From positions 1-22,637 of IMG/VR virus record IMGVR_UViG_3300025769_000918: a DNA stretch of 22,637 nt, one strand, 5' to 3'. Shown piece by piece: positions 3,798 to 22,621 of this stretch. Source of the DNA: a virus. Each line of letters opens with the position of its first letter. Positions within the stretch are counted from its first letter, which is position 1. A program made the position numbers and the translations under genes. The notes under the pieces are model-generated. The model did no database searches, was not told the origin of the DNA, and worked only from the letters and a program-made list of their open reading frames with translations.

Positions 3798-4397
3798 TTA
3801 CGTTTTCAGCCAGACTTCGTCACTTTTGGTGCGTTTTTCATATCTGTAGCCCAGATCTCGCAATATGTCCTCGGCACGTTTCACTGTGTCTGCCCTCTTG
3901 TCACGCTTCATCTCGATGTTGATCACGGCGTTGTTCTTGGTCAGTGTGTCGCGGGCTCCCTCCAGCAGGGGCACCTCGAATCCGTCCACGTCTATCTTGA
4001 CGAAGTCCACGTTGGTCAGTCCAAAACTGTCCAAGGTCCTGCACTGGATGTCACCTGCACCCTCGTTCAAGATCGTCGAGTTGAAATCCTGTTGGGCCTG
4101 GTGTTCCTTGTTGGATAAACCATAGGGCCATAGTACCACGTTGGTTTCCGCGATGTTCTTCTTGAAGCACTGCCTAAAGTTGGGATTGGGCTCGAAGCAT
4201 ATCACACTGTGGAATCTTTTTGCCAGTGGTCTGGTCCACTGACCTACGTTGCTACCTATGTCCAGGCACACGCGCCATTGGTTCACGTAACCCAGTGCGG
4301 CGTCCCTCTGTGGCTGTTGGCCATGTCCGGCGTCCTCCAGGTATGTGGGTTCGGTGTGCTGTCCATACAGCACCCAGAAACTATTCTCGCTTGGCAT
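3798..4397 (-). CDS. FkbM-family SAM-dependent methyltransferase
   Basis: 199 residues from the ATG at 4397. The frame stays open upstream to 4481, but that part overlaps a more convincing Cys-rich gene, so the shorter start (AAGAG a few bases ahead) is chosen. The SAM-binding motif I is VCLDIGSNVGQW (residues 43-54). The acidic motif after strand 2 is CFEPNP (67-72). The FkbM hallmark KIDVDGFE is at 134-141, followed by LLEGA. Members usually O-methylate sugars or polyketides; the substrate here is unknown. It is the last gene of a minus operon and overlaps the Cys-rich gene by 17 nt. It fits with the glycosyltransferase-like neighbours as part of a glycan-modifying set (inference). Confidence 0.88.
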   Translation of the reverse strand: MPSENSFWVLYGQHTEPTYLEDAGHGQQPQRDAALGYVNQWRVCLDIGSNVGQWTRPLAKRFHSVICFEPNPNFRQCFKKNIAETNVVLWPYGLSNKEHQAQQDFNSTILNEGAGDIQCRTLDSFGLTNVDFVKIDVDGFEVPLLEGARDTLTKNNAVINIEMKRDKRADTVKRAEDILRDLGYRYEKRTKSDEVWLKT

Positions 4398-4497
4398 CAC
4401 ACTCTTGACAGCCGCAGTCCGGACAGTCAAGACACTCGGTGCATGATTTACCACAGTGCTGTTCACAGCCACACCGCTCACAGATGTACTTGATCAT
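4381..4497 (-). CDS. 38-residue Cys-rich, probably metal-binding mini-protein
   Basis: An ATG at 4497 overlaps the TGA stop of the upstream gene by one base (TGATG), and the frame runs to TAG at 4381. The product has 10 Cys in 38 residues, at positions 6, 9, 11, 15, 19, 22, 25, 28, 30 and 33, with a His at 14. The spacing gives repeated CxxC and CxC pairs, as in zinc-ribbon or metallothionein-like proteins. Such a pattern would be very unlikely by chance. The gene also overlaps the FkbM start by 17 nt. Two zinc sites or a small metal cluster are plausible. The role is unknown. Confidence 0.72.
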   Translation of the reverse strand: MIKYICERCGCEQHCGKSCTECLDCPDCGCQECDAKRE

Positions 4498-5060
4498 CAC
4501 ACGGCCCCCTTCATGGCCCTGTGTAGGTCCGTGCCCGCCAGTTTGGCGGCTAGATGCTGGAGCAGTTTCTTCCTTGTGACCTGCTTGTTCTTGTCATCCA
4601 ACCCATTGTAGTTGGCGATATTTCTTCTGAGGTTCTTGTAGTTGGCGTCAGTTATGTTGAGAGCCCTCTCCAGTTGCGTCAGATTCCGGTAGTGGTCTTC
4701 CCAGGTCCTTAGGTATCTCCTCACGGCCATCACGGGCACCGGTTGCCTCTGCCTCATGGCCTGTGCTTGGTTCTTGTTCTTTAATTTTTTTGTTATCTCC
4801 GGATCACCGGTCACTATGGCCAGCATGTTGGCTAGATCATTGTTGATCATCCTGACCTGGTCAAACGTGCCCTTGGCCATGGTCTGGTCTGCGTATGATT
4901 TAGCAAAGTCCCTCATCTCCCTGATCTGGCTGAACAATGAAAGCGCGAGGAAACTGAGGTATATCCTCTCGGTGACTTCTGGAAACGTGTATCTCTGCAA
5001 GTCACTCTGTCGCCTTATGACCTTGCCCTCAGATACATACTTTAAGAATGGTGTAAGCAT
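4497..5060 (-). CDS. Helical phage protein of unknown function
   Basis: 187 residues from the ATG at 5060 (MLTPFLKYVSEGK). A second ATG at 5066 in the same frame overlaps the last base of the late box, so it would probably not be transcribed. The protein is almost wholly helical and basic, with heptad-like charged segments (about residues 45-70 and 115-165) and no Cys or membrane segment. The perfect late box TATAAATA ends 5 nt before the ATG. The Cys-rich and FkbM genes follow with one-base and 17-nt overlaps. No family recognised. Confidence 0.8.
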   Translation of the reverse strand: MLTPFLKYVSEGKVIRRQSDLQRYTFPEVTERIYLSFLALSLFSQIREMRDFAKSYADQTMAKGTFDQVRMINNDLANMLAIVTGDPEITKKLKNKNQAQAMRQRQPVPVMAVRRYLRTWEDHYRNLTQLERALNITDANYKNLRRNIANYNGLDDKNKQVTRKKLLQHLAAKLAGTDLHRAMKGAV

Positions 5061-5065
5061 ACCCA

Positions 5066-5073
5066 TATTTATA
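5066..5073 (-). promoter_or_regulatory. Perfect T4-type late promoter box TATAAATA, 5 nt before ATG
   Basis: The minus strand reads TATAAATA, TGGGT, ATG. This is an exact match to the T4 late consensus with the start codon at the predicted +1. It lies in the gap between two divergent genes whose start codons (5060 minus, 5080 plus) are only 19 bp apart. Confidence 0.75.
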
Positions 5074-5079
5074 GATACT

Positions 5080-6096
5080 ATGCAACGTAATTTTATATTG
5101 ACCGACGTGATGAAGACCGGCAACCACCTAGAGCTGGAGGACTACATCAACATGAATTCCATGCCGCACCAGGATTTCCACATGACCGGGGAGTACTACA
5201 CACTGCATGACTACAACCTCGACGCCTATGATCGGAGGTTCGCCATGATAGACACCCGTGTGGAAAATCAACGGTTGAAAGACAATCCAGAGTTCATGGC
5301 AGAGATAGATCGCAGGATACAGCTCTTGAAGAGCCAGAACTTCGTGTTCATAAAAACCACGCCATGGGAGAGTCCCTCCACGCTGGAATCAGAGGACACA
5401 TGGCCCATGGTGGACGTGCCGCACGTCAGGTGGACCGGCGACACCAGCTGGTTTTGGTGGCTGATGTACAAAAAGTACAAAGATCATGATTTGGAATTCA
5501 AACACACAGAGAAGAAGTTTGACTTCCTTTACCTCAACAAGACACCAAAAAAGCACAGGAAGAAATTATACGATCAACTGCACACCGACATCAACACGGG
5601 TAGTCTGGTGTCATATTGGCCTACCCTTAAGCTAGCGCCGGAATATGAAATTGTGCATCCTTATCCAGAACGGGGGTTGGACCAAACGATCATGCCCAGG
5701 CAGTATGAAGACACCAAGTACTCCCTGCTGTCCGAATCTACGGACGTCAACACAGAAGTTTTCATGACCGAACGCATCTGGAAATCTATAATCGCTGAGC
5801 ACGTGTTCGTCGTCCATGGCAACTACCTTTACCTGCAGAAACTCAGGGAGATGGGTTTCAAGACATTTTCGAAGTATTTTGATGAGGGCTATGACCTTGC
5901 GCGAGATCAAAACGAACGGGCGGAAAAGATAGCCAACACCTGTAGGGATCTACTCACCAAGAACTGGCAAGACATTTACCTGCAAACGAAATATTTAAGA
6001 CAGCACAATAAGAATAACTTCTTTGATGAGGGCAGACTAAGTGCTGAGATCAATAAACAGTTATCAATTTTTCTTGAATTTGCTGATCGCAGTTAG
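5080..6096 (+). CDS. Glycosyltransferase-like protein, paralogue 1 of 3
   Basis: 338 residues from the ATG at 5080. The frame stays open for another 300 nt upstream, but that part is antisense to 4497-5060. The C-terminal half carries a block shared with 13232-14245 and 17527-18663: TERIWKSIIAEHVFVVHGN, then YLQKLREMGFKTFSKYFDEGYD (about residues 229-271) and a final RQHNKNNFF. The EK/ER..KP..PF..G pattern followed by LR..GF.TF...DE.YD resembles the C-terminal nucleotide-sugar half of GT-B enzymes such as GT10 fucosyltransferases. That link is from memory and unproven. The N-terminal half is specific to this copy. The 3' end overlaps the convergent gene by 33 bp. No clear promoter is seen. 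Confidence 0.82.
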   Translation: MQRNFILTDVMKTGNHLELEDYINMNSMPHQDFHMTGEYYTLHDYNLDAYDRRFAMIDTRVENQRLKDNPEFMAEIDRRIQLLKSQNFVFIKTTPWESPSTLESEDTWPMVDVPHVRWTGDTSWFWWLMYKKYKDHDLEFKHTEKKFDFLYLNKTPKKHRKKLYDQLHTDINTGSLVSYWPTLKLAPEYEIVHPYPERGLDQTIMPRQYEDTKYSLLSESTDVNTEVFMTERIWKSIIAEHVFVVHGNYLYLQKLREMGFKTFSKYFDEGYDLARDQNERAEKIANTCRDLLTKNWQDIYLQTKYLRQHNKNNFFDEGRLSAEINKQLSIFLEFADRS

Positions 6097-11145: not shown

Positions 11146-11176
11146 AAAGGGCGTTAGAAATATCGCCCTTTTTTTT
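11146..11176. terminator. Bidirectional rho-independent terminator
   Basis: Perfect 8-bp arms AAAGGGCG (11146-11153) and CGCCCTTT (11164-11171) with a 10-base loop. A run of T follows on the plus strand, ending the cold-shock transcript. The opposite strand also carries T-rich sequence after the hairpin, and the TAA stop of the convergent gene 11175-11519 lies in the T run, so one hairpin can serve both genes. Confidence 0.9.
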
Positions 11177-11519
11177 ACTCGAAAGTTTCTGTTTTTGCCA
11201 CAGTGGTTCCGTCCGGACCTATCCACTCCAGTTTGAACCATTCGATGTCTCCAGCACGCCATGCCGTAGAACTGTCAGAGAGGTTGGTAACTGCTGTTTT
11301 CCATGATGCTTGATCAATGCCAGACGCAAATTCAAATGTTACCACCAGAGTTTGATTTGAATCTGCTAGAGCATAGGTGATAGTTGGGTTGGAATTTGTA
11401 AGGAAGGTGCTGTGGAAGGCACATTTGGTCTGTGCATCCGAAACACTAGAAAAAGTATCAATTGAATTGTCGTCTAGTCGTCTTCTGAAATATTCCTTGT
11501 GTCTTAACTCTATTGCCAT
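11175..11519 (-). CDS. Small conserved paralogue family protein, copy 1 of 3
   Basis: 114 residues. It shares the layout of 11548-11898 and 12843-13202: an N-terminal E.RHKEYFRRR, then TFSSVSDAQTKCAFH, a Thr/Pro segment, ADSNQTLVVTFEFAS and a DQASWKTAV helix. The body is beta-rich, with no signal peptide and no membrane segment. It looks like a small domain used in a phage particle or regulatory complex, but no function is known. The C-terminus (EWFKLEWIGPDGT) is close to copy 2 (EHFRTEWLLPDGS). It lies 28 nt after copy 2 in one operon and shares the terminator with the cold-shock gene. Confidence 0.85.
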   Translation of the reverse strand: MAIELRHKEYFRRRLDDNSIDTFSSVSDAQTKCAFHSTFLTNSNPTITYALADSNQTLVVTFEFASGIDQASWKTAVTNLSDSSTAWRAGDIEWFKLEWIGPDGTTVAKTETFE

Positions 11520-11547: not shown

Positions 11548-11898
11548 TTAAAGATTAACTGTATCACCAACCGAACCGTCTGGTAATAACCATTCCGTCC
11601 TGAAGTGCTCCACCGTGTCCGTGGCATCTACTGGACTGAAAGGCGTTGAACTGTCACTCCAAGCGCCGTCGATAGCGTTCTGGAATGCTGTCTGGTCGGC
11701 ATCTGATTCAAACTCATAGGTAACAACCAACGTCTGTCCACCGTCCTCAAGTGCCTCTGTCTTTGTGGGTGTCGAGGTATCGTAAACAGATGTGAACCCG
11801 ATCTTGGTGTTGGCATCTGCTGTCGATGAGAAAGTCTTAAGGGTGCTATCTGCTCCTCTGATTCTGAAATATTTCTTGTGTCTGTATTCTGCCGCCAT
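11548..11898 (-). CDS. Small conserved paralogue family protein, copy 2 of 3
   Basis: 116 residues. It is related to copies 1 and 3 through EYRHKKYFRIR at the start, TFSSTADANTKIGF, EDGGQTLVVTYEFES and a following DQTAFQNAI helix. Its middle region differs from copies 1 and 3, which are closer to each other there (both have KCAFH.T.LT). The ATG has AGGAGA 8 nt upstream. A perfect TATAAATA box (11924-11931) gives a leader of about 20 nt. It is the first gene of a two-gene unit ended at 11146-11176. Function unknown. Confidence 0.85.
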   Translation of the reverse strand: MAAEYRHKKYFRIRGADSTLKTFSSTADANTKIGFTSVYDTSTPTKTEALEDGGQTLVVTYEFESDADQTAFQNAIDGAWSDSSTPFSPVDATDTVEHFRTEWLLPDGSVGDTVNL

Positions 11899-11923
11899 TT
11901 TTGAATCTCCTAGTTAGCAAACG

Positions 11924-11931
11924 TATTTATA
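11924..11931 (-). promoter_or_regulatory. Perfect T4-type late promoter box TATAAATA
   Basis: The minus strand reads TATAAATA, 25 nt upstream of the ATG at 11898, with AGGAGA between. Only one base separates it from a plus-strand box (11933-11940), forming a back-to-back pair of late boxes. Confidence 0.75.
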
Positions 11932-11932
11932 C

Positions 11933-11940
11933 TGTAAATA
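11933..11940 (+). promoter_or_regulatory. Late-type box TGTAAATA, 5 nt before ATG
   Basis: TGTAAATA then CCTTT then the ATG at 11946, the same geometry and box as before the DUF1178 gene. No Shine-Dalgarno fits in the gap. Confidence 0.55.
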
Positions 11941-11945
11941 CCTTT

Positions 11946-12836
11946 ATGCGCGTAAAACACCTACACATCGAGGCATCCAGCCACTGCAACGCCCGTTGTC
12001 CAGGGTGTCCTCGTAACGGATATGGTTTTCCGCTAGAAGGGTTTTTCAAAGCAACTAATCTTGCTACCGACCAGCTACGAGAGATCCTCAAGCGATTCCC
12101 AGAGGTAACCAGCATCAATTACTGTGGTAACCACGGTGATCCTATGATGAATCCTGAGATTGCCGAGATGTGTGATCTGAAAGGTGTAAATTGCTCCATA
12201 GCCACCAACGGCAGTATTGGCAAAATCTCCACCTACGAAAAGATCGCTCAAACGGGAACCAAGATCACGTTTGGCATAGACGGTTTGAGCGATACAAATC
12301 ATCTTTACCGACAAGGAGTTGTATGGGACAATTTGATGCTCCGTGCCCGGGCGTTCATTGAAGCGGGAGGCCAAGCTACCTGGCAATTTATAATGTTCCA
12401 ACACAACATGCACCAAGTCCAACAAGCCAAGAGGATGAGTGAGATAATGGGATTCAAAAAATTTTTCACTTTGGATGTGGGCAGGAATAACATGCCGGCA
12501 ATTCAACCCGATAAAACAGTAAGCCACTGGATTTTGCCTCCGGACATGAATGCGAGGCCCACGGAGTTTGATGTTGATGCATACCTTAAAATGAGGTACG
12601 ATCCAGTGGACTTTACAAGCTCCACACAAGAAAGCATCAAAATATCATGCGAGCATCTAGATGGCAGTGTATATGTCAACAGTGAGGGAGAGTTTTTTCC
12701 CTGTTGTTATCATGGTTTTGGACACGTAGATCGACCAAAGGTGTATCTCGAGGAATTTGAACAGGTCAAGTCAACTTGGGAAACAAAAAATTGTAATCAG
12801 GTCTGTGCTGAATCTTGTGGTTTAGTTAGAAAATAA
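11946..12836 (+). CDS. Radical SAM protein with SPASM-like C-terminal cysteines
   Basis: 296 residues from the ATG at 11946. The [4Fe-4S] motif is C14-x3-C18-x2-C21 (HCNARCPGC). GNHGDPMMNP (61-70) matches the SAM-binding GGEP-type motif, and FGIDGLSD (109-116) fits a core strand. A C-terminal set, C235, C253, C254, C283, C287 and C291 (SVYVNSEGEFFPCCY, then CNQVCAESC), resembles the SPASM/Twitch auxiliary cluster of enzymes that modify peptides or proteins. The substrate is unknown. It is inserted on the opposite strand between copies 2 and 3 of a small protein family, which makes those proteins candidate substrates (inference). It ends 6 nt from the convergent gene. Confidence 0.9.
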   Translation: MRVKHLHIEASSHCNARCPGCPRNGYGFPLEGFFKATNLATDQLREILKRFPEVTSINYCGNHGDPMMNPEIAEMCDLKGVNCSIATNGSIGKISTYEKIAQTGTKITFGIDGLSDTNHLYRQGVVWDNLMLRARAFIEAGGQATWQFIMFQHNMHQVQQAKRMSEIMGFKKFFTLDVGRNNMPAIQPDKTVSHWILPPDMNARPTEFDVDAYLKMRYDPVDFTSSTQESIKISCEHLDGSVYVNSEGEFFPCCYHGFGHVDRPKVYLEEFEQVKSTWETKNCNQVCAESCGLVRK

Positions 12837-12842
12837 AATATT

Positions 12843-13202
12843 TCAACCAACAAAGCCTCCATTGCCAGGCACGTGATTTCTCACAAAGACCTGCAGTGTT
12901 TCTGGCTTCTCGGCACCTTGCCATTTGATATCATTGGCGCAGTATCTTATGCCATTTTTGTTGAGGTTGGAGACATTGATCCACCATGCCTGCTGGGCAT
13001 CACTGCTGGTAAACTCCAATGTGACCTTTAGGGTTTCCCCCGAATCCTCTAAATCATAGGTCACAACGGGACTGTTACTGGTGAGATATGTGTTGTGGAA
13101 CGCACATTTCTCCTGTGCGTCTGTGATGCTCGTGAACTGGTAAAATGAGCCGTCGGGCAATTTCCGCTTGAAACGTTCGTGATGTGTGAACTCTGATGAC
13201 AT
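12843..13202 (-). CDS. Small conserved paralogue family protein, copy 3 of 3
   Basis: 119 residues. It matches copy 1 closely through the core: FTSITDAQEKCAFHNTYLT, VVTYDLEDSGETLKVTLEF and an AWW.NVSNL helix. The C-terminus differs, ending Gly-rich (HVPGNGGFVG). It is separated from copies 1 and 2 by the radical SAM gene. A CATAAATA box (13227-13234) lies 24 nt upstream of the ATG. No clear Shine-Dalgarno is seen (CAATAAAAC). Function unknown. Confidence 0.85.
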   Translation of the reverse strand: MSSEFTHHERFKRKLPDGSFYQFTSITDAQEKCAFHNTYLTSNSPVVTYDLEDSGETLKVTLEFTSSDAQQAWWINVSNLNKNGIRYCANDIKWQGAEKPETLQVFVRNHVPGNGGFVG

Positions 13203-13226: not shown

Positions 13227-13234
13227 TATTTATG
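13227..13234 (-). promoter_or_regulatory. Late promoter box CATAAATA overlapping the start codon of the divergent gene
   Basis: The minus strand reads CATAAATA, and the same bases contain the ATG (13232-13234) of the plus-strand gene 13232-14245. Late polymerase bound here would cover the 5' end of that gene. Confidence 0.6.
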
Positions 13235-14245
13235 TTGGACAAATTAAGTAAAAAAAGGAAGACCCATATTCCGGTGTTCCAAACCGAACTCTTTATGACA
13301 GTCATGCAGACATCTGAAAACATCAAAAGCAGTCTCAATGATCTGGAATCTAAAATTAAGCACTGCGAAAATTTAGTGGTGGTTCATAACGAAAACATGA
13401 ACTTTCATCGTTTCTTTGATGAGCGGTTCGTTGAGTTGGTAAAAAATAACATGGACAAGTTTATTGTATTGGTTGAGGGGGAGGATAAAAATTTTCCTTT
13501 TCCTTACCAACAACACAATAACTTCTGCCTAGAAATACAACACAACAACCAGGGTTTGCCTAAAATAAATCATGACACCAAGACAAAAGATTTTTTAGTG
13601 TTAGTAGGGAGGCCGGACAAAAAAAGGGTAGAACTGGTCAAGGCCATGGAGACACTTGATCTTCTGAAGAACAGTTATGTCAGTTGCAAGGCTGTTGAGT
13701 CTGGGTGTGTGTATCACCTTGAAGAAGACATCGAGGGATTTCGTGAGGACCCATACACGCTTTGCCAAATACCTTTCATCCCGCACTTCCAAAACTCCAA
13801 ACTCAGCGTCGTCCTGGAGACGGAGATGGAGAGGCCCTCATACCAATTGAGTGAAAAAATCTACAAACCCTTGATGACTGAACATCCTTTCGTGGTGTTG
13901 GCTCCCGCTGGATATCTCAAGTACCTTCGATCACAGGGCTATCAGACTTTTGGCAAATGGATGGATGAGAGTTATGATCTTGAACCGGACATCAACAAAA
14001 GGATAGAAATGATAGCCAAGGTCTGTAAAGACTTTGTTGACTCTGATGTCACCCTCTTTTATCAACAGACGGAGAGTGTGAGACAACACAATAGGAATAA
14101 ATTCTTTTCCGTTAAACCCCGTGGTCTAGATATTACACTTTCACTTTCATCACTTTGGTTAATGGGTATGCGTAATATTACAGTTGAATCTGAACTTGAT
14201 TTGGCCCCTTATAATCCTCAGTTGTCACATGATGGACATAAGTGA
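13232..14245 (+). CDS. Glycosyltransferase-like protein, paralogue 2 of 3
   Basis: 337 residues. The C-terminal half holds the shared block: LSEKIYKPLMTEHPFVVLAP, then YLKYLRSQGYQTFGKWMDES, and RQHNRNKFF, in the same order as in 5080-6096 and 17527-18663. The family affinity (GT-B fold, fucosyltransferase-like C-terminal half) is suggested by the SEK..KP..PF.V pattern and not proved. The N-terminal half (about 1-170) differs from the other copies and includes VVVHNENMNFHRFFDE. No signal peptide. A later start (Met 22 or 25) is possible, because the first ATG lies inside a minus-strand promoter box and no plus-strand promoter is visible. The coding region is more AT-rich than the left part of the window. 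Confidence 0.8.
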   Translation: MLDKLSKKRKTHIPVFQTELFMTVMQTSENIKSSLNDLESKIKHCENLVVVHNENMNFHRFFDERFVELVKNNMDKFIVLVEGEDKNFPFPYQQHNNFCLEIQHNNQGLPKINHDTKTKDFLVLVGRPDKKRVELVKAMETLDLLKNSYVSCKAVESGCVYHLEEDIEGFREDPYTLCQIPFIPHFQNSKLSVVLETEMERPSYQLSEKIYKPLMTEHPFVVLAPAGYLKYLRSQGYQTFGKWMDESYDLEPDINKRIEMIAKVCKDFVDSDVTLFYQQTESVRQHNRNKFFSVKPRGLDITLSLSSLWLMGMRNITVESELDLAPYNPQLSHDGHK

Positions 14246-14270: not shown

Positions 14271-14290
14271 TACATCATTTTACATCATTT
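14271..14290. repeat. 10-bp perfect tandem repeat at a convergent gene junction
   Basis: TACATCATTT occurs twice in a row. The second copy contains the TGA stop of the minus gene 14285-15475. It looks like a recent slip duplication. The 39-bp gap between the convergent genes holds no clear hairpin. Confidence 0.8.
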
Positions 14291-15475
14291 AGTGTAATAA
14301 CCGTAGTAGACCACATTGTCGGCCTTGGGATAACTTCTCCACGGATCAAATATGATTGTTTTGGTGTCTGTTGTTATTTGATCTGATTCATGCACCCTTA
14401 CTATGACTTCAACGGGGTCATCGATACCGTCCACAATCATTCCGCCATGCTTTTTGACGTAGTGTTGCACTAACAATGAGTAAGATCCATCCACTAGAGC
14501 TGTGCCTGGCTTGTAGGAGTCAGAAGTGAAGAACACGTTCTTGCCGTGTTTAAGGATAGCCACGGCCATGTGTTCTGCCTGTTGTTCTCTGGCCGTCATT
14601 ATGCTCTCAAACAGATCGTAACCCAGACCTAATTCTTTGGCCAGCCATCTCAGCGCGATATTGTCTCTGGGGTGGCAGGCACCGCCATCGCCCATGCCCG
14701 CTTTCATGTAGGCCGGACTCACTATTCTCTTGGTGGACCTAGACAAGGCCTGTGTGACTCTGTCAACGTTCATGTGCCCTATATTCTGTGCGACGTCCTG
14801 GATCATGTTGACCAACGCTATCTTGTTGCTGATGAATGTGTTGTAGAATATCTTCATTGACTCCACTTCCTCCCAAGTGCCGGTCTCCACGCGTGGATAG
14901 TTGTCACAGACGACGTTGTAGAAACTTTCTAGAAGTTCAGTCCTCTGTTTACATAACTTCCCTTTGGTCCCCCATTCTGTTCCTATCATGATCATCTCTG
15001 GGTTCACCATGTCATCAGCGACGGTGCCCATTGCTATCAGATAGGGATTATAGACGAGTCCGGTTTTGGTCATTATAGGCGCAAGTTCTCTCCTGACTGT
15101 GCCTGGAAGCACAGTTGATATCAGCACAATGGTCTGTTGTTCTGTGCATATGTCGTTGATTCTTGAGAGTGTCTCCTTGACCGTGTCGTAGTTGAAATCC
15201 TTGACTTCTTTGTCGCTAGTTGGTTCTCTGCCGTCATATCCTGGCTCGTGTGGTGTAGGCACCGCTATGAATACTATATCTCGGTCTGTGACTGTTTCTT
15301 TTAGGTCTGGATGCACATTGATCAAATTACTTGTCTTGGTCACGGTGTCAAACCCTGCCACGTCGAATCCTTTCCTGGCGATGGCTTCCGCACAGGGCAT
15401 GCCAAGTTTGCCCAGTCCAACGAAGGCAATTTTCTGCTGGTATAAAATTTTATTTGTTCTAAAAAAATCCATCAT
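14285..15475 (-). CDS. NDP-sugar (UDP-glucose/GDP-mannose type) dehydrogenase
   Basis: 396 residues from the ATG at 15475, which shares its A with the TAA of the upstream gene (TAATG). The NAD-binding motif is G20-L-G22-x2-G25 (IAFVGLGKLGMP). VPTPHEPGYDG (72-82) and STVLPGTVRRE (120-130) are core motifs. K208 and N212 lie in the central helix. GDGGACHPRD (262-271) supplies the catalytic C267, usually found as GG(S/A)C(F/H)P(K/R)D. Such enzymes oxidise the C6 alcohol of a nucleotide sugar to a uronic acid in two NAD-dependent steps. At 396 residues, somewhat below the usual 400-450, its C-terminal domain looks short. It closes an operon with two amidinotransferases. Confidence 0.92.
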   Translation of the reverse strand: MMDFFRTNKILYQQKIAFVGLGKLGMPCAEAIARKGFDVAGFDTVTKTSNLINVHPDLKETVTDRDIVFIAVPTPHEPGYDGREPTSDKEVKDFNYDTVKETLSRINDICTEQQTIVLISTVLPGTVRRELAPIMTKTGLVYNPYLIAMGTVADDMVNPEMIMIGTEWGTKGKLCKQRTELLESFYNVVCDNYPRVETGTWEEVESMKIFYNTFISNKIALVNMIQDVAQNIGHMNVDRVTQALSRSTKRIVSPAYMKAGMGDGGACHPRDNIALRWLAKELGLGYDLFESIMTAREQQAEHMAVAILKHGKNVFFTSDSYKPGTALVDGSYSLLVQHYVKKHGGMIVDGIDDPVEVIVRVHESDQITTDTKTIIFDPWRSYPKADNVVYYGYYTK

Positions 15476-16572
15476 TAATCTCTGTCCAGGTCCTGTGTGA
15501 GACAATGTATGCCCGTGTCCCAGAACCATCTATGCCTGAAGGGAGTCACGTGAAGCTCTATGCCATGCCTCTTCATGGCCTGCCTCACCTGCTTGTTTTC
15601 CGTGCTACACAGGGCATTCTTCTTGTCCAGCATCAGAATGTTTACCATGAAGGCAGTCTCGTTCACATTACCTATCCAACTGTTGAAGTAGTAATCCACC
15701 ATTTCGACTAGGTCTTTGTTTTGCTCCATGCCTTCTATGAACCATTTGTGTTCTGCTGTCATCATCTGCTGTTTGAATTTATCATCCTTTAACGTGATCT
15801 CTGCAGGAACTGACACCACTTCGGCATCTGGGAAGATACGGTTGTAATCTATGGTGTCATATGCCGATATGATCAGTGTTTCCGACACCGGAGCAAAGCA
15901 CCCATCAGAATGTCCTTCGCTAGAAGCCACGTGTATTTCCTTAGATGGAAACATCTTCGAAAATCTTTGCTTGATGCTGTCGTGATCATCATGATAGTTT
16001 TGTGTTCCCACTATCATCCTATCCCCCAATCTCGTGATAAATGACGAGTTCATGTAATCTATGGGACTGGCCACAACTTCGTTTCCTTGTTGGAGAGCGA
16101 GGGTGAAAATGTCTTTGTAGAAACTGACCTTCTGGTCGAATACATATTTGTCCTGCTTCTGGAAATCTATCCATTGTTGGTGCAACTGTTCGTCCTGCAA
16201 AGCATCTCGTGTATCGATCTGTTTAAGACCAGCGAACTCCATCCACGCGTGATTCAAATTGGGCAATCCGGGATAGTAAAGTTCATCATCAATCATGGCC
16301 ATGAAGTCTCTAGCGGCAATTGGCGGTGCGATATATCCGTTTGATATCTTGAATTGATCAAAATTCTCCGGCATGGTTGGCCTTATCACGTTGATATCAA
16401 ATGATTCAAGGAAAGTGACAAGTTTTTTTATGTCTTCCTCTGTTTCTATGGCTAGCGTTTCGAAAGTCTTCCGGAGAGCCGGATCTTTGATGAAATCAAA
16501 CAGCTCGGGAGGATAGGCACTGCCCACCACACATGTCTTGAGTTTGTTCCACTGGTGGGTGACCTTGAACAT
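15475..16572 (-). CDS. Divergent amidinotransferase-family protein (second of the pair)
   Basis: 365 residues. The Cys-ending block IHCLTQDLDRD (355-365, C357) and GHSDGCFAPVSE (220-231, H221) match the catalytic Cys and His regions of the arginine amidinotransferase superfamily. AARD (86-89) matches the substrate-binding loop. In the block where the catalytic Asp belongs, alignment to the upstream gene gives MNSSFI, so N175 replaces it. The function may therefore differ (another acceptor, another guanidine-like donor, hydrolysis, or loss of activity). A roughly 45-residue stretch after AARD (YYPGLPNLNHAW onward) is absent from the first copy. Start and stop both overlap the neighbours by one base (TAATG). 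Confidence 0.88.
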   Translation of the reverse strand: MFKVTHQWNKLKTCVVGSAYPPELFDFIKDPALRKTFETLAIETEEDIKKLVTFLESFDINVIRPTMPENFDQFKISNGYIAPPIAARDFMAMIDDELYYPGLPNLNHAWMEFAGLKQIDTRDALQDEQLHQQWIDFQKQDKYVFDQKVSFYKDIFTLALQQGNEVVASPIDYMNSSFITRLGDRMIVGTQNYHDDHDSIKQRFSKMFPSKEIHVASSEGHSDGCFAPVSETLIISAYDTIDYNRIFPDAEVVSVPAEITLKDDKFKQQMMTAEHKWFIEGMEQNKDLVEMVDYYFNSWIGNVNETAFMVNILMLDKKNALCSTENKQVRQAMKRHGIELHVTPFRHRWFWDTGIHCLTQDLDRD

Positions 16573-17486
16573 TATTCCCTCTCCAGGTCGCAGGTCACAC
16601 AGTGAAAACCACCACCTAGCGTCCTTGATTGTCTCATTGATGTAGTAATTACCTTGAATCCGCAGTCCTCTAATTTCTTAATCAAACCCTCCTGTATCTC
16701 GTCAACGACGACAGTCTCTGGATCCAAGGAAAGCACATTCATTCCTATCCATTTGGATGCGTACGGGAAGTGGTGGAAATTGCTAGGAGTGACATCATCT
16801 ACCCATATCTTTTTGTAATCCCGCATGAAATCTGGAAGCTGGTCTTCCTTGACCCTGGAGGCGTTTACCAACACAGTGTCCTTGTCCAACGCCAGCAGTG
16901 TGGAGTCGATGTGTGTTATGTCATGATCTACCACTCGCCACTTGACCACTTCGAACTCTGTTCCCACTTGTTGTTGTAACCAATCGGCACCGGCTTCGTT
17001 TGCCGAGTGAGAAAGGGAATAAAGTAGCCTGTCGTCCATCTTCAACACATTTGCCGCATCAAATATGGGATCTTGTTGTGTCTTAGGCCTGGGGGCCTTG
17101 ATTATTTCGCATTCTGCCTCTGTAAGGAAAGGGTACAATTCCAATTCGTTGGCTCGACTGGAGAATGGAGTTGGACACTGGATAACTTTGTTCCCCACAG
17201 TGAGTATTATGTCTCTGGCCGAATAGGACCAGTGTGTTCCGGTGACCTTGGGTCGATACACTTCGATACCACGGTCTTCCATGATCGCTGACAGTCGCTC
17301 TAGGTCAATGCTGGCTTCATCCATCACATGTGAAGCTGGTTTGCCTGCTTTGAGAGTTTCATGGTACGTTGATCGAGCTATTCCTTCGTCAAATTCTTTG
17401 TCGTTGTCCGGCCATTGAAAATTTTCCACACTGCCCACGATGGCAGATCGTAACTTGCCATACTCGTTTTTGGTAGATATCTTCAT
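16572..17486 (-). CDS. Arginine:glycine amidinotransferase-like enzyme
   Basis: 304 residues. It matches my recollection of human AGAT over the catalytic core: FDAANVL (142-148) for FDAADFI, HIDST (192-196) for HIDAT, KWIGMNVLSLD (245-255) and LGGGFHCVTCD (290-300). The triad would be D143, H192 and C296, with D-H and H-C spacings of 49 and 104, as I recall for the human enzyme. AGAT moves the amidino group of arginine to an amine such as glycine. The acceptor here is unknown. The protein lacks the long N-terminal part of the animal enzyme. It is the first gene of the operon, 5 nt after a late box that sits in a palindrome. Confidence 0.93.
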   Translation of the reverse strand: MKISTKNEYGKLRSAIVGSVENFQWPDNDKEFDEGIARSTYHETLKAGKPASHVMDEASIDLERLSAIMEDRGIEVYRPKVTGTHWSYSARDIILTVGNKVIQCPTPFSSRANELELYPFLTEAECEIIKAPRPKTQQDPIFDAANVLKMDDRLLYSLSHSANEAGADWLQQQVGTEFEVVKWRVVDHDITHIDSTLLALDKDTVLVNASRVKEDQLPDFMRDYKKIWVDDVTPSNFHHFPYASKWIGMNVLSLDPETVVVDEIQEGLIKKLEDCGFKVITTSMRQSRTLGGGFHCVTCDLERE

Positions 17487-17526: not shown

Positions 17527-18663
17527 ATGAAGTTGGCCAGATACATCGACAGAGAATGGCACCACTACTGTGTGCGTGACAATAATGTGATAGACACACT
17601 GTTCTTTGACTTCAACGAGTTCAAAAAATCGGATGCACAAAAAAAATTTTCATACCTGCAGGACTTTGACGCCACTTTTGACTCACTAAAATCACTGGAA
17701 GAAAAGATACGCCAACACATTCCTGTATCGGACCATGTGTACGTTGGGCTGGGGGAGCCGTTGGTGCAGTACAAAGACGCATCCAAACACGGTTGGGACA
17801 CAGAAAACAACATCGCAGAGGGACCTTACTATTACACGGACGATTTTATCAACAGGTTCTCAAAATCAGATCCAGTGACCTTTTTTGCCAATCTTGTTTC
17901 TCATGTGCCGTTGAACCGCCCAATATATTACCTTAATGACATGTTCTTTCAAGACAATAAAATTTACAGGAACTACAAGATATGCAGAAATCTATTAGGC
18001 AAACTCTCTAGAACATTTGACAAACGGTACCATTGGGAAATAATGTGCAGTCATAATGTTAAGTTGTACCAAGCACTCAAACGGCACGTTGTAAACTCTA
18101 AAACTTTCTCTACCTGTCACGCACTGGGAATCACTCACTGGGGACAGGATGTCATTGTGCCCTCAGACAAAAAATCTGGCGCAGAATCAATAGATCCAGG
18201 AAATCACAACATTAGATGCAGTGATTTGATAGATCCCAGCATTTACAATCAATCACACTATTCATGTGTTGTTGAAACTGTCATACCATCAGACAATAGG
18301 ATGTCCATGTTCAGTGAGAAGGAGGCCAAACCCATAGTGGCCAAGAGACCATTCATAATTGTTGGCACAATGGATCATCTCAAGGCATTCCGGAGCCTGG
18401 GATTCAAAACATTCTCGCCTGTGATTGATGAATCGTACGACGACGAACCAGATTTTGATAAAAGGGTAGAAATGATACTCGATGCCATGGAAGCGTTGTC
18501 ACAAAAAGATCCCATGGAAGTTTATAGAAAATTAGCGGGCGTCTTGGAGCACAATCACTATCATTTCTATAACAACAAATGGAACAAGAAACTATTGGAG
18601 GAATGGTATCAAGGCGAGATTCTGTTCAAAACACAAACAGAAACGATCATAAAACCAAGGTAA
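17527..18663 (+). CDS. Glycosyltransferase-like protein, paralogue 3 of 3
   Basis: 378 residues, the longest copy. The shared C-terminal block reads MFSEKEAKPIVAKRPFIIVG, then HLKAFRSLGFKTFSPVIDES and YDDEPDFDKRVEMI, followed by LEHNHYHFYNNKW where the other copies have RQHN.N.FF. The N-terminal half is unique, soluble and rich in aromatic and charged residues. A TATAAT (17506-17511) lies 15 nt before the ATG but has no good -35. The gene is divergent from the amidinotransferase operon and ends in a hairpin shared with the convergent oxygenase gene. The glycosyltransferase call is tentative. Confidence 0.8.
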   Translation: MKLARYIDREWHHYCVRDNNVIDTLFFDFNEFKKSDAQKKFSYLQDFDATFDSLKSLEEKIRQHIPVSDHVYVGLGEPLVQYKDASKHGWDTENNIAEGPYYYTDDFINRFSKSDPVTFFANLVSHVPLNRPIYYLNDMFFQDNKIYRNYKICRNLLGKLSRTFDKRYHWEIMCSHNVKLYQALKRHVVNSKTFSTCHALGITHWGQDVIVPSDKKSGAESIDPGNHNIRCSDLIDPSIYNQSHYSCVVETVIPSDNRMSMFSEKEAKPIVAKRPFIIVGTMDHLKAFRSLGFKTFSPVIDESYDDEPDFDKRVEMILDAMEALSQKDPMEVYRKLAGVLEHNHYHFYNNKWNKKLLEEWYQGEILFKTQTETIIKPR

Positions 18664-18691
18664 ATCTATAAGAGTTAAAACCTTTTAGATT
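18663..18691. terminator. Possible shared hairpin terminator between convergent genes
   Basis: AATCTATAAG (18663-18672) and CTTTTAGATT (18682-18691) pair over 10 bp with one mismatch around a 9-base loop. The arms include parts of both stop codons. No long T run follows on either strand, so it may be a weak terminator or an RNA-end stabiliser. Confidence 0.45.
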
Positions 18692-19241
18692 ATTGATTGC
18701 TCTTTCCTGTGATCTGTATCACATAACGATCTGTTTCGCCTAGATTGGCCGCCATGTGTTTGGTGGAGCCCTGCCAACTGAACCAAGTGCCAGCCGGTCC
18801 AGTGCAGTATCTATCCTCTATCCAGAGCTGATGTCCCGGGGCCGGGTCGTGCAGGAATACCATTATGCGCACTATCTCATCAACAGTGGCCTTCTTGTTG
18901 CGGGAGTATGTGGGGTAGTTGTCTTTGTGCCAGGGCAGGATCAGTCCAGGTGTGTACTTGGCGAACGCATACACAGAATCCTCGAGATCAAAATGTTCTA
19001 ATACATGACCAAAAATCTCATCCACTTCTTTGGGGATGAACACACCCTTGCCCACTTGCTCGAACTTGGGTATAAGGCATCCTATCCGGTCCTTGTATAT
19101 GCCATAGTTGTGTTCTGGTGTGCTGAAGCCCTGTCTCTTGTCGGGATTCTCGAACCAAGGCAATGATTCGTAGTCTGTGGATTGCCAACGCACTGGTATG
19201 GTGCCTTGTCGTTGGTTCCAATCATTAAATCTGTAAGACAT
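18690..19241 (-). CDS. 2-oxoglutarate/Fe(II)-dependent oxygenase-like protein
   Basis: 183 residues. LPWHKDNYPTYSR (102-114) supplies the H105-x-D107 iron ligands. GSTKHMAANLG (158-168) supplies the distal H162, and R172 (TDRYVIQITG) would bind 2-oxoglutarate. Between them VRIMVFLHDP and GTWFSWQGS form the expected jelly-roll strands. The arrangement is like the aspartyl/asparaginyl hydroxylase and prolyl-hydroxylase-type enzymes. The substrate could be a protein, a sugar or a small molecule. It is transcribed divergently from the SGNH gene across a 25-bp gap. No late box or Shine-Dalgarno is obvious. Confidence 0.82.
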   Translation of the reverse strand: MSYRFNDWNQRQGTIPVRWQSTDYESLPWFENPDKRQGFSTPEHNYGIYKDRIGCLIPKFEQVGKGVFIPKEVDEIFGHVLEHFDLEDSVYAFAKYTPGLILPWHKDNYPTYSRNKKATVDEIVRIMVFLHDPAPGHQLWIEDRYCTGPAGTWFSWQGSTKHMAANLGETDRYVIQITGKSNQ

Positions 19242-19266: not shown

Positions 19267-19887
19267 ATGAAGAAGTTGGGATTTTTTGGTGACAGTTTCT
19301 GTGAAAGCCGTGAATCACACAGTTGGTGTGTGTTGTTGGCAGAGAAGTTGGCACACCAAGTTACACACTGGGGCAGGGGCGGAGCATCCGTATGGAACAC
19401 TTTCATGGAATTTGAGGCTTTGCTGGAACAGGAACAATTACCAGATACCATGGTGTTCTGTTGGACAGAACCCTACCGTCTCTATCATCCTTCGGTGCCA
19501 TTGGCCAAGGGTGCGGTGCCTTATCCAGGGCCCGACCAGAACTTATTCAAGGCCGCGGACATGTATTACGTGTATCTGCAGGACTACAGGAAGGACGAGC
19601 TGGCCTACAGGTACGCCCTACAGTGGTTCGACCAAGAGGTGCTCTCAAAGGTAACCGATAAGAAAATCATACAGACGTGGAGCATGCGACCTTTCGAACT
19701 GTCTGGTGTGGAATGCGACTTGAAACTTAACACCGGAACGTTCATCAACGAGAGCATGTTGGAGTTCGCATGGAGAGGGCAGAAACCTAGCCCTGATTTC
19801 AAGTTTGACATCACACTGGCAAATCACATGACCAAACAACAGAACCAACAGTGGGCGGATAAAGTATATGACTTTATCTGTAGATAA
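19267..19887 (+). CDS. SGNH/GDSL hydrolase-like protein
   Basis: 206 residues. LGFFGDSFCES (4-14) is block I with the nucleophile S10. WGRGGASVWNTF (35-46) fits block II (Gly), and TMVFCWTEPYRLY (61-73) lies where block III (usually GxND) should be, with Thr in place of Asn. LANHMTKQQNQQWAD (184-198) carries H187 in the block V region. Typical members deacylate sugars or lipids. The missing block III Asn makes activity uncertain. The other SGNH protein at 7631-8323 is only distantly alike. A short tandem repeat follows the gene. Confidence 0.78.
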   Translation: MKKLGFFGDSFCESRESHSWCVLLAEKLAHQVTHWGRGGASVWNTFMEFEALLEQEQLPDTMVFCWTEPYRLYHPSVPLAKGAVPYPGPDQNLFKAADMYYVYLQDYRKDELAYRYALQWFDQEVLSKVTDKKIIQTWSMRPFELSGVECDLKLNTGTFINESMLEFAWRGQKPSPDFKFDITLANHMTKQQNQQWADKVYDFICR

Positions 19888-21736: not shown

Positions 21737-22621
21737 TTGTCCCACCAGATACACACGGGCGATAATCGAGACATACTGAAGACCTTTGACGAGAACAGCC
21801 TCGACGGTTGCGTCACAGACCCACCCTATGGGATGGCGATGGAGGATTGGGATGGTTCAGTGCCAACCACAGAGACCTGGCAGGAAGTGTTAAGGGTGCT
21901 CAAACCAGGAGCATTCTGTCTCAGTTTCTGTTCACCAGAACTTTATCACAGGATGGCCTCCAATGTGGAACGGGCGGGTTTCAGGATACTCGATATGATC
22001 AACTGGATAGTGACAACCAAGATGGCCAAGACCAACAGGCTGAAGCCAGCACACGAGCCCATCGTGGTGGCACAGAAGCCATTCACGGGCACCATAAAAC
22101 AGAATTCGGACGAGTGGGGTGTTGGAACTATCAACATCGATGGAGCCAGGGTTCCGTGGGAGGGCAGGCCACCCACAGGATGGACACGAGGTGGACACCA
22201 ACGGAGGGTGTTCGGCAAGTCAGAGACCCAATCAGACAGGGCCAAGGACGGCACGGTGGACGCCAACCCCGACGGCAGGTATCCCAGTGACGTGATGGGA
22301 CACTTCGATCAACCAGACATACAGAAATATTTCTATGCCCCCAGGGTCACTAGAAAAGAGAAGGGCGAATACAACGACCATCCCACGGTCAAACCCATAA
22401 ACCTTATGAGATACCTTGTGAGGATCTACACACCCGCAAAGGGCACGGTGCTGGATCCGTTCAATGGCACGGGCACCACAGGCATAGCATCGATCCAGGA
22501 GGGCAGGTCATATGTGGGCATCGAACTCAGTGAACACTATCGGGAGATATCGGAACAGAGGATCCAGGATCACTGTTCAGATCCCGCCAATTTCGAGCGA
22601 TTGTTCGACTACGAGCGGTAG
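21737..22621 (+). CDS. Beta-class DNA amino-methyltransferase (N6-adenine or N4-cytosine), orphan
   Basis: 294 residues from a TTG start, supported by GGAGGA 6 nt ahead and one base after the previous stop. The catalytic motif IV DPPYGM (28-33) comes before the SAM-binding motif I DPFNGTGTTG (240-249), so it is a beta-class enzyme. HPTVKP (the segment before motif I) is typical. The variable region between them (about 100-215) should hold the target-recognition part. DPPY suits N6-adenine methylation but does not exclude N4-cytosine. No restriction endonuclease gene is next to it in the window, so protection of phage DNA or epigenetic control is more likely. It ends 16 nt before the window edge. 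Confidence 0.93.
   Translation: MSHQIHTGDNRDILKTFDENSLDGCVTDPPYGMAMEDWDGSVPTTETWQEVLRVLKPGAFCLSFCSPELYHRMASNVERAGFRILDMINWIVTTKMAKTNRLKPAHEPIVVAQKPFTGTIKQNSDEWGVGTINIDGARVPWEGRPPTGWTRGGHQRRVFGKSETQSDRAKDGTVDANPDGRYPSDVMGHFDQPDIQKYFYAPRVTRKEKGEYNDHPTVKPINLMRYLVRIYTPAKGTVLDPFNGTGTTGIASIQEGRSYVGIELSEHYREISEQRIQDHCSDPANFERLFDYER

Follow-up and report, generated by a model that had tools for sequence, protein, structure and literature searches.

Amidinotransferase genes linked to a divergent sugar-dehydrogenase-like gene in phages: a candidate guanidino-sugar cassette

Three overlapping genes on a viral fragment

Why would a phage couple two amidinotransferase-like genes to a gene for a sugar-dehydrogenase-like protein? 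The 22.6-kb viral fragment analysed here (the window) carries such a trio on its minus strand: AT-A (16572–17486), AT-B (15475–16572) and UG (14285–15475). The AT-A/AT-B and AT-B/UG joints are TAATG one-base overlaps, with shared bases at 16572 and 15475; the longest ORF of UG opens at 15529, and 15475 is the start that gives the overlap. The coordinates, strand and both overlaps of the original prediction are borne out in the sequence. It had proposed looking for the trio elsewhere, and the same genes were found in the same order in two further IMG/VR contigs, with protein identities of 74–85%, a recurrence beyond what chance would give. The exact order was seen only in these two contigs besides the window. 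AT-A has a dN/dS of about 0.05 against its relatives in the recurring trio; for AT-B and UG, dS is saturated and yields no ratio.

AT-A encodes a StrB1-like protein of 304 aa (phrog_25854) that matches PF02274 with 28.7 bits (cut-off 22.8). Its best match among solved structures is StrB1 (1bwd, E = 1.4e-43), followed by HsvA (3.1e-35) and AGAT (7.8e-25), with ADI reaching just 0.15. D143, H192 and C296, predicted as the full triad of an AGAT-like enzyme, are all present and align with StrB1, and Asp-His-Cys is invariant across 14 AT-A/AT-C sequences. By its sequence, AT-A is a pentein-family homologue nearest to amidinotransferases. The kept triad and the similarity to StrB1 suggest that it would transfer the amidino group from arginine to an amine. 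HsvA, its second-best solved relative, is a polyamine amidinotransferase, which counts against a sugar reading.

The 365-aa product of AT-B is predicted to have the amidinotransferase fold. Its model (pLDDT 81) matches AGAT, StrB1, SxtG and HsvA best (Foldseek E 3e-16), with HsvA as the top Foldseek match. Superposition gave Z 26.7 to human AGAT (rmsd 2.9, 274 aligned) and Z 23.1 to arginine deiminase. C357, H221, D223 and R88-D89 are kept. AT-B does not have the complete Asp-His-Cys triad: His221 and Cys357 are present and the Asp is replaced by Asn175, a position at which the nearest relatives carry Asn or Ser. AT-B is thus a divergent second amidinotransferase, as had been proposed, in its predicted fold, but the residues do not support an ordinary one. 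A dead duplicate is disfavoured, since AT-B retains the Cys, the His and the two Asp residues on the substrate side, and its protein identity to relatives is 84–85% despite saturated dS. The lack of the triad Asp counts against the guanidino-sugar reading.

UG encodes a UDPG/GDP-mannose-dehydrogenase-like protein of 396 aa (phrog_9148) with NAD-binding and central domains (PF03721, 68.2 bits; PF00984, 61.9 bits). The catalytic residues C267, K208, N212 and D271 occur in 181/181 sequences. The Glu of the PEFL.EG motif is absent: UG reads NPYLIAMG, with Tyr145 and Met149 in all 181 relatives, whereas classical relatives read NPEF. The UDP-binding C-terminal domain PF03720 gave no match in UG and a weak one (20 bits) in a fused relative. 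By sequence, we assign UG to a divergent subfamily (Tyr145/CHPRDN) of UDPG/GDP-mannose dehydrogenase relatives. The original prediction of a nucleotide-sugar 6-dehydrogenase is right as to this relationship, but the score against TIGR03026, the NCBIfam nucleotide-sugar-dehydrogenase model (143.8 bits), lies below the cut-off of 189.8. The change of the catalytic Glu to Tyr in 181/181 relatives speaks against an ordinary uronic-acid-forming enzyme. With neither the usual Glu nor a recognisable UDP-binding domain at its C terminus, UG may not use a nucleotide sugar, a further point against the guanidino-sugar reading.

Linkage across viral loci

Viral loci were retrieved with the amidinotransferase (AT) alone or with UG alone. 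Among the 77 AT-retrieved loci, UG is present in 71 and a 2OG-Fe(II) oxygenase (2OG) in 73, mostly in the order UG-2OG-AT. The UG-retrieved loci form 48 dereplicated groups, 19 with AT. Both the DegT family (11/19 AT groups vs 1/29 AT-free groups, p = 3e-5) and the 2OG family (14/19 vs 2/29, p = 2e-6) track AT; the 2OG statistics refer to the short form only, the pooled cluster c7 also holding a longer core-type gene. DegT lies within 10 kb in 11/77 AT-retrieved loci, and most large-phage UG-2OG-AT loci have no DegT that near. Rather than the trio itself, what is conserved is a UG-2OG-AT module, which may or may not include DegT. Its AT-UG linkage spans three viral AT clades and both marine and freshwater contigs. 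Glycosyltransferases flank the AT module in relatives, phages may hold two or three ATs, and the island is hypervariable from one close relative to the next. A single pathway, first proposed from the tight coupling of the trio, is supported by the linkage of amidinotransferase and UG in many unrelated viral contigs; a check for unlinked genes in relatives, named at the outset as evidence against it, found AT-UG linkage to be widespread. Radical SAM as a specific AT partner was rejected: it occurs in 11/19 AT groups and 26/29 AT-free groups, and is thus commoner without AT.

Other genes of the island are present in the window. A 2OG-Fe(II) oxygenase-like gene (18690–19241, minus strand), whose family is strongly AT-linked, has a weak Asp/Arg-hydroxylase match with HxD...H...R kept. 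On the plus strand, a family (c2) is found in three copies, at 17527–18663, 13232–14245 and 4885–6096 (the last with an uncertain start, its ORF opening at 4756). The first copy is a probable GT-B glycosyltransferase with a GT10-like fold (a modest Z of 9.3 to 2nzw). Pfam, PHROGs and PDB gave no sequence match to the family and Foldseek none under E 0.001; the GT10-like assignment is tentative and draws on a VIA Z of about 9 to GT-B enzymes. The same strand carries a radical SAM gene of the same island type (11901–12836) and an SGNH-hydrolase-like gene (19267–19887; family c35), named by eye from a GDSF motif, which adjoins the 2OG gene in relatives. No DegT, tail-fibre or neck gene was found within the 22.6-kb window.

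The DegT proteins of the relatives are small, 195–242 aa against about 360 aa for the full two-domain form. They match PF01041 with 57.6 bits, the match stopping near profile position 242 of 360. Motif residues are kept, and Lys110 and Asp86 (the PLP lysine and PLP-binding Asp) are invariant in 17 sequences. The matches of this mini-DegT are to sugar aminotransferases, scyllo-inositol transaminase and WbpE among them. One contig (L226) carries rSAM-GT-UG-2OG-DegT-AT-carbamoyltransferase in direct succession (rSAM, radical SAM; GT, glycosyltransferase), and S-SCSM2R, a cultured Synechococcus phage, has a single run of GTs-DegT-rSAM-GT-2OG-AT-GT. In a further locus (L076), the cassette has a tail-fibre gene on one side and head-tail connector genes on the other.

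Among 80 cellular AT loci, just two (L101 and L102) have viral-type neighbours, and the flanks of L101 match the window; both are probably misbinned phage contigs. A host origin of the whole module was rejected on these grounds. Seven genomes of cellular AT loci, searched for UG, held solely distant UG relatives, located elsewhere.

A possible pathway and its alternatives

On balance, we regard the trio as one form of a cassette with which phages would tailor glycans by making a guanidino (amidino) sugar. The original suggestion of a guanidino- or amidino-modified sugar is supported indirectly, because relatives link a DegT/StrS-type aminotransferase, glycosyltransferases, a carbamoyltransferase and the 2OG oxygenase. 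From the gene identities, active-site residues and conserved linkage, we infer the substrates, reaction order, glycan location and benefit as follows. UG would oxidise a sugar via Cys267, the substrate probably being a nucleotide sugar and the site its C6, and in relatives the mini DegT/StrS-type aminotransferase would place an amine on a keto-sugar. AT-A would load arginine's amidino group on Cys296 and pass it to the amine, with release of ornithine. AT-B might, like StrB2 beside StrB1, add a second amidino group, or it might have an altered activity. The 2OG oxygenase would act on the sugar or its neighbour by hydroxylation or oxidation. Attachment of the sugar to a virion or host-surface glycan would fall to GT10-like/GT25-type transferases. 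The benefit would most likely be changed receptor properties that exclude co-infecting phages. Bearing a guanidino group from arginine, the sugar may mask the phage or the surface of its host. The absence of DegT from the window, and from the 10 kb around most large-phage UG-2OG-AT loci, counts against this scheme.

An alternative that we judge unlikely is that the amidinotransferases use a free amine (for instance a polyamine or an amino acid) and yield a soluble guanidino compound, with UG and 2OG tailoring a small molecule and no glycan being involved. Glycine is an acceptor for AGAT-type enzymes, a SpeD gene occurs in S-SCSM2R, and the polyamine enzyme HsvA matches AT-A at 3.1e-35 and tops the Foldseek matches of AT-B. 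However, AT-A scores better with StrB1 than with HsvA or AGAT, and the AT neighbours are glycosyltransferases, a sugar aminotransferase and a sugar dehydrogenase, not polyamine genes.

A cassette that modifies a protein or peptide, for example tail fibres by means of a 2OG hydroxylase, radical SAM and Lys amidination, with the sugar genes as mere neighbours, seems to us quite improbable. The weak resemblance of the 2OG family to Asp/Arg hydroxylases, the abundance of radical SAM/SPASM proteins nearby and the tail-fibre genes adjoining the L076 cassette would fit it. But the DegT and UG families are small-molecule enzymes tied to AT more tightly than radical SAM, which is rarer in AT groups than in AT-free ones.

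We give even less weight to AT as an ordinary auxiliary metabolic gene that supplies ornithine or recycles arginine nitrogen independently of UG. Ornithine is released in every amidinotransferase reaction and guanidinoacetate methyltransferase genes occur in ocean viruses (PMC11360552), but so strong and directional a linkage to UG, 2OG and DegT is unexpected for a stand-alone arginine enzyme and weakens this explanation. That chance brought the trio together in an island hypervariable among close relatives, its exact order found in just two more contigs, is hardly credible, given that AT-UG linkage recurs over three viral AT clades, marine and freshwater, and that the counts in UG-retrieved groups and AT-retrieved loci already disfavour it.

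Relation to known systems

The guanidino-sugar cassette resembles the streptomycin and bluensomycin clusters, which combine DegT proteins (StsC/StsA) with StrB1/StrB2 and, in bluensomycin, a carbamoyltransferase. StrB1 is the nearest match of AT-A, the phage AT is accompanied by DegT and sometimes by a carbamoyltransferase, and multiple ATs are possible. Streptomyces AT loci, including those of S. griseus and S. bluensis, carry DegT relatives, and that of S. bluensis also a carbamoyltransferase. Unlike the streptomycin clusters, phages add UG, the 2OG oxygenase and glycosyltransferases, their ATs fall into clades separate from Streptomyces, their DegT of about 200 aa lacks the C-terminal part, and the phage cassette shows no sign of an inositol-based product.

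The WbpA/B/E/D/G-type amidino/diacetamido uronic acid pathways of P. aeruginosa join a 6-dehydrogenase, a DegT aminotransferase and an amidine-forming step. The phage loci are analogous in these three elements, and the mini-DegT matches WbpE. In P. aeruginosa, the acetamidino group comes from the amidotransferase WbpG and not from arginine via an amidinotransferase; a WbpB- or WbpD-like gene was not identified in the phage loci.

Among phages, the Campylobacter phage CP220/CPt10 cassette combines a putative glycine amidinotransferase with radical SAM genes (PMC2853527). It shares a phage AT with the present cassette, and CP220 also has nucleotide-diphospho-sugar transferase-like proteins, but the AT is only about 25% identical and UG, 2OG and mini-DegT were not found there. 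The host-recognition-cluster island of pelagimyophages and cyanomyophages, which are T4-like marine phages, is hypervariable and carries genes for glycosyltransferases, UDP-glucose 6-dehydrogenase and radical SAM proteins (PMC7029224). The position of the L076 cassette between tail fibre and neck genes is like that of this glycan-rich island, of which the cassette is probably a part. The passages of that work covered here mention no amidinotransferase, and the UG of the present cassette belongs to the Tyr145/CHPRDN subfamily, not to classical UGDH. As far as these sources go, phage amidinotransferases (PMC2853527) and phage sugar islands (PMC7029224) were previously known, but separately. Searches of the non-subscription literature on phage amidinotransferases, guanidino sugars and S-SCSM2R gave no description of the UG-2OG-AT module.

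Phage surface-sugar genes are known, but what they make in aquatic phages is mostly guesswork. Whatever the physiological pH, a guanidino sugar would carry a positive charge, which could alter adsorption, superinfection exclusion and the way in which competing phages recognise the surface. AT relatives are encoded in at least 580 viral stretches, so this chemistry would be widespread among aquatic phages. More tentatively, and with somewhat less than even confidence, we propose a very common aquatic-phage pathway to a guanidinylated sugar on virion or host-surface glycans, a viral counterpart of streptomycin-type guanidino chemistry in which a new subfamily of UG, a minimal DegT of one domain and 2OG would be fixed partners. 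The idea is directly testable, because the cultured S-SCSM2R, which grows on Synechococcus WH7803, carries DegT, 2OG and AT. A second AT of this phage adjoins KdsA/KdsB and 2OG genes.

The minus-strand trio

Three minus-strand open reading frames, encoding the amidinotransferase-like AT-A (16572-17486) and AT-B (15475-16572) and the UDPG/GDP-mannose-dehydrogenase-like UG (14285-15475), were confirmed with the predicted coordinates, strand and one-base TAATG overlaps at both junctions (AT-A/AT-B and AT-B/UG). AT-A scores above the cut-off of the arginine deiminase/amidinotransferase family, and the full triad predicted for it was found (D143, H192, C296). Its top solved relative is the inosamine-phosphate amidinotransferase StrB1 (1.4e-43), followed by HsvA, SxtG and AGAT.

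AT-B had been described as a divergent second amidinotransferase. Its sequence similarity is barely detectable (HsvA at 5e-4; a PHROG common to AT-A and AT-B, 1.5e-7). The predicted model (pLDDT 81) most resembles human AGAT (Z 26.7), StrB1 (26.5) and SxtG (26.1), with arginine deiminase scoring lower (Z 23.1). Cys357, His221, Asp223 and Arg88-Asp89 are retained, but the triad Asp is replaced by Asn175, and the nearest relatives carry Asn or Ser at this site. The predicted fold agrees with the description; judged from sequence and model, AT-B should be called an amidinotransferase-fold protein and not an ordinary amidinotransferase.

UG, originally predicted to be a nucleotide-sugar 6-dehydrogenase, has a clear match to both the NAD-binding domain and the central domain. 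Without exception, its 181 viral relatives keep the mechanism residues Cys267, Lys208, Asn212 and Asp271. Equally invariant among them are two unusual motifs, NPYLIAMG for NPEFL.EG and GDGG.CHPRDN for GFGGSCFPKD, and UG scores below the curated nucleotide-sugar-dehydrogenase cut-off. Both motifs also occur in Synechococcus phage Bellamy, and Pelagibacter phage HTVC008M comes close with NPYLIAQG; the UGDH of the cultured Synechococcus phage S-SCSM2R has the classical NPEF. We infer a 6-dehydrogenase acting on one specific substrate. In two relatives UG is fused to a methyltransferase domain (L261:4562-7681, L275:1871-3802), and a third is a long protein with an extension (L288:4743-7073).

Linkage and ancestry

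To count linkage, relatives were retrieved separately with each gene as query. The amidinotransferase-UG linkage recurs in other genomes, but the exact AT-A/AT-B/UG order was seen only in the window and two contigs (L001 = L006; L003 = L181). Amidinotransferase-fetched loci contain UG in 71/77 and a short 2OG-Fe(II) oxygenase-like gene (2OG) in 73/77; for plus-strand amidinotransferases, UG lies within 2.5 kb on the same strand in 72/85 and 2OG in 73/85. The 80 UG-fetched loci were dereplicated to 48 groups, 19 of which hold an amidinotransferase, frequently overlapping UG or at most 66 bases away. Both a DegT-type aminotransferase (11/19 with vs 1/29 without, p=3e-5) and 2OG (14/19 vs 2/29, p=2e-6) accompany the amidinotransferase in these groups. 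Loci fetched with the short DegT contain amidinotransferase in 49/79, 2OG in 49/79, UG in 41/79 and all four in 25/79. One locus, L226, reads radical SAM, c2 family, UG, 2OG, DegT, amidinotransferase, carbamoyltransferase; S-SCSM2R has a consecutive run of glycosyltransferase genes, DegT, radical SAM, glycosyltransferase, 2OG, amidinotransferase, glycosyltransferase.

In a quick tree of 191 amidinotransferases, with some long branches, viral and cellular sequences hardly mix (3 changes vs 47 expected by shuffling). The viral sequences form three main sets: AT-A (mostly UG-2OG-amidinotransferase), DegT-associated and AT-B. Only 2/80 cellular loci have viral-type UG or 2OG neighbours. Both are short contigs from Verrucomicrobia (TMED56) and Bacteroidetes MAGs (L101, L102) that look like phage, and the window has flanking genes in common with L101.

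A probable glycan cassette

Phage amidinotransferases (PMC2853527) and phage glycan islands (PMC7029224) are each known; no description of the two joined in one module was found in the open-access literature. In PMC7029224, a hypervariable island for host recognition carries radical SAM cassettes as well as glycosyltransferases and UDP-glucose 6-dehydrogenase; the paper suggests that the O-chain is modified to counter co-infection. The cassette position in L076, between a tail-fibre gene and head-tail connector genes, matches that island. The window comes from a related lineage. There, content between the c24/c19 and c36 family genes varies contig by contig; the window itself has no recognised tail-fibre or neck gene.

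We consider it somewhat probable that the trio is part of a glycan cassette whose product is a guanidino sugar, one of the products originally suggested. The data establish the gene identities, the residues, the linkage and the viral ancestry; the sugar substrate, step order, target glycan and benefit are inferred. Streptomyces offers chemical precedent, with DegT beside the amidinotransferase in S. griseus and S. bluensis, and a carbamoyltransferase also in the latter. Weak points are the altered UG pocket, the altered AT-B triad and the aminotransferase missing from most UG-2OG-amidinotransferase loci and from the window, a 22,637-base IMG/VR fragment in which a missing gene tells little about the whole phage. 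The main rival product, a guanidino-polyamine or another soluble guanidino compound, appears unlikely.

Partner enzymes and neighbours

The 2OG family (c7) conserves HxD...H...R with a weak Pfam match (E 0.003-0.14), and the S-SCSM2R copy is publicly annotated as 2OG-Fe(II) oxygenase. In L261 the 2OG protein reaches ~600 aa, and Pfam shows no additional domain in it. The c59 family is GT25-type. Three divergent c2 paralogues (4885-6096, 13232-14245, 17527-18663) are not recognised by sequence libraries; the family's fold resembles GT-B glycosyltransferases, with GT10 among the best structural matches (Z 9.3), a likeness that is suggestive only. The c2 family is probably of GT-B type. Three tandem c36 paralogues of 114-119 aa (11175-11519, 11548-11898, 12843-13202) adjoin the cassette. 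A minus-strand FkbM-type methyltransferase (3798-4481) is likely another sugar-tailoring gene, and a DNA methyltransferase (21737-22621; phrog_67) lies at the fragment end.

Besides a NadE-like gene, the 642-kb phage of L100 (LR756502.1 448000-472000) carries a UG of the CHPRDN type and a short DegT near glycosyltransferase-like genes; no amidinotransferase was found in that stretch. The DegT/DnrJ/EryC1/StrS protein (c10, 195-242 aa) keeps the PLP lysine and Asp and lacks the C-terminal domain. Such minimal ~200-aa aminotransferases occur in at least 595 viral stretches, among them L083:2900-3502, L226:9306-10004 and L091:7863-8450.
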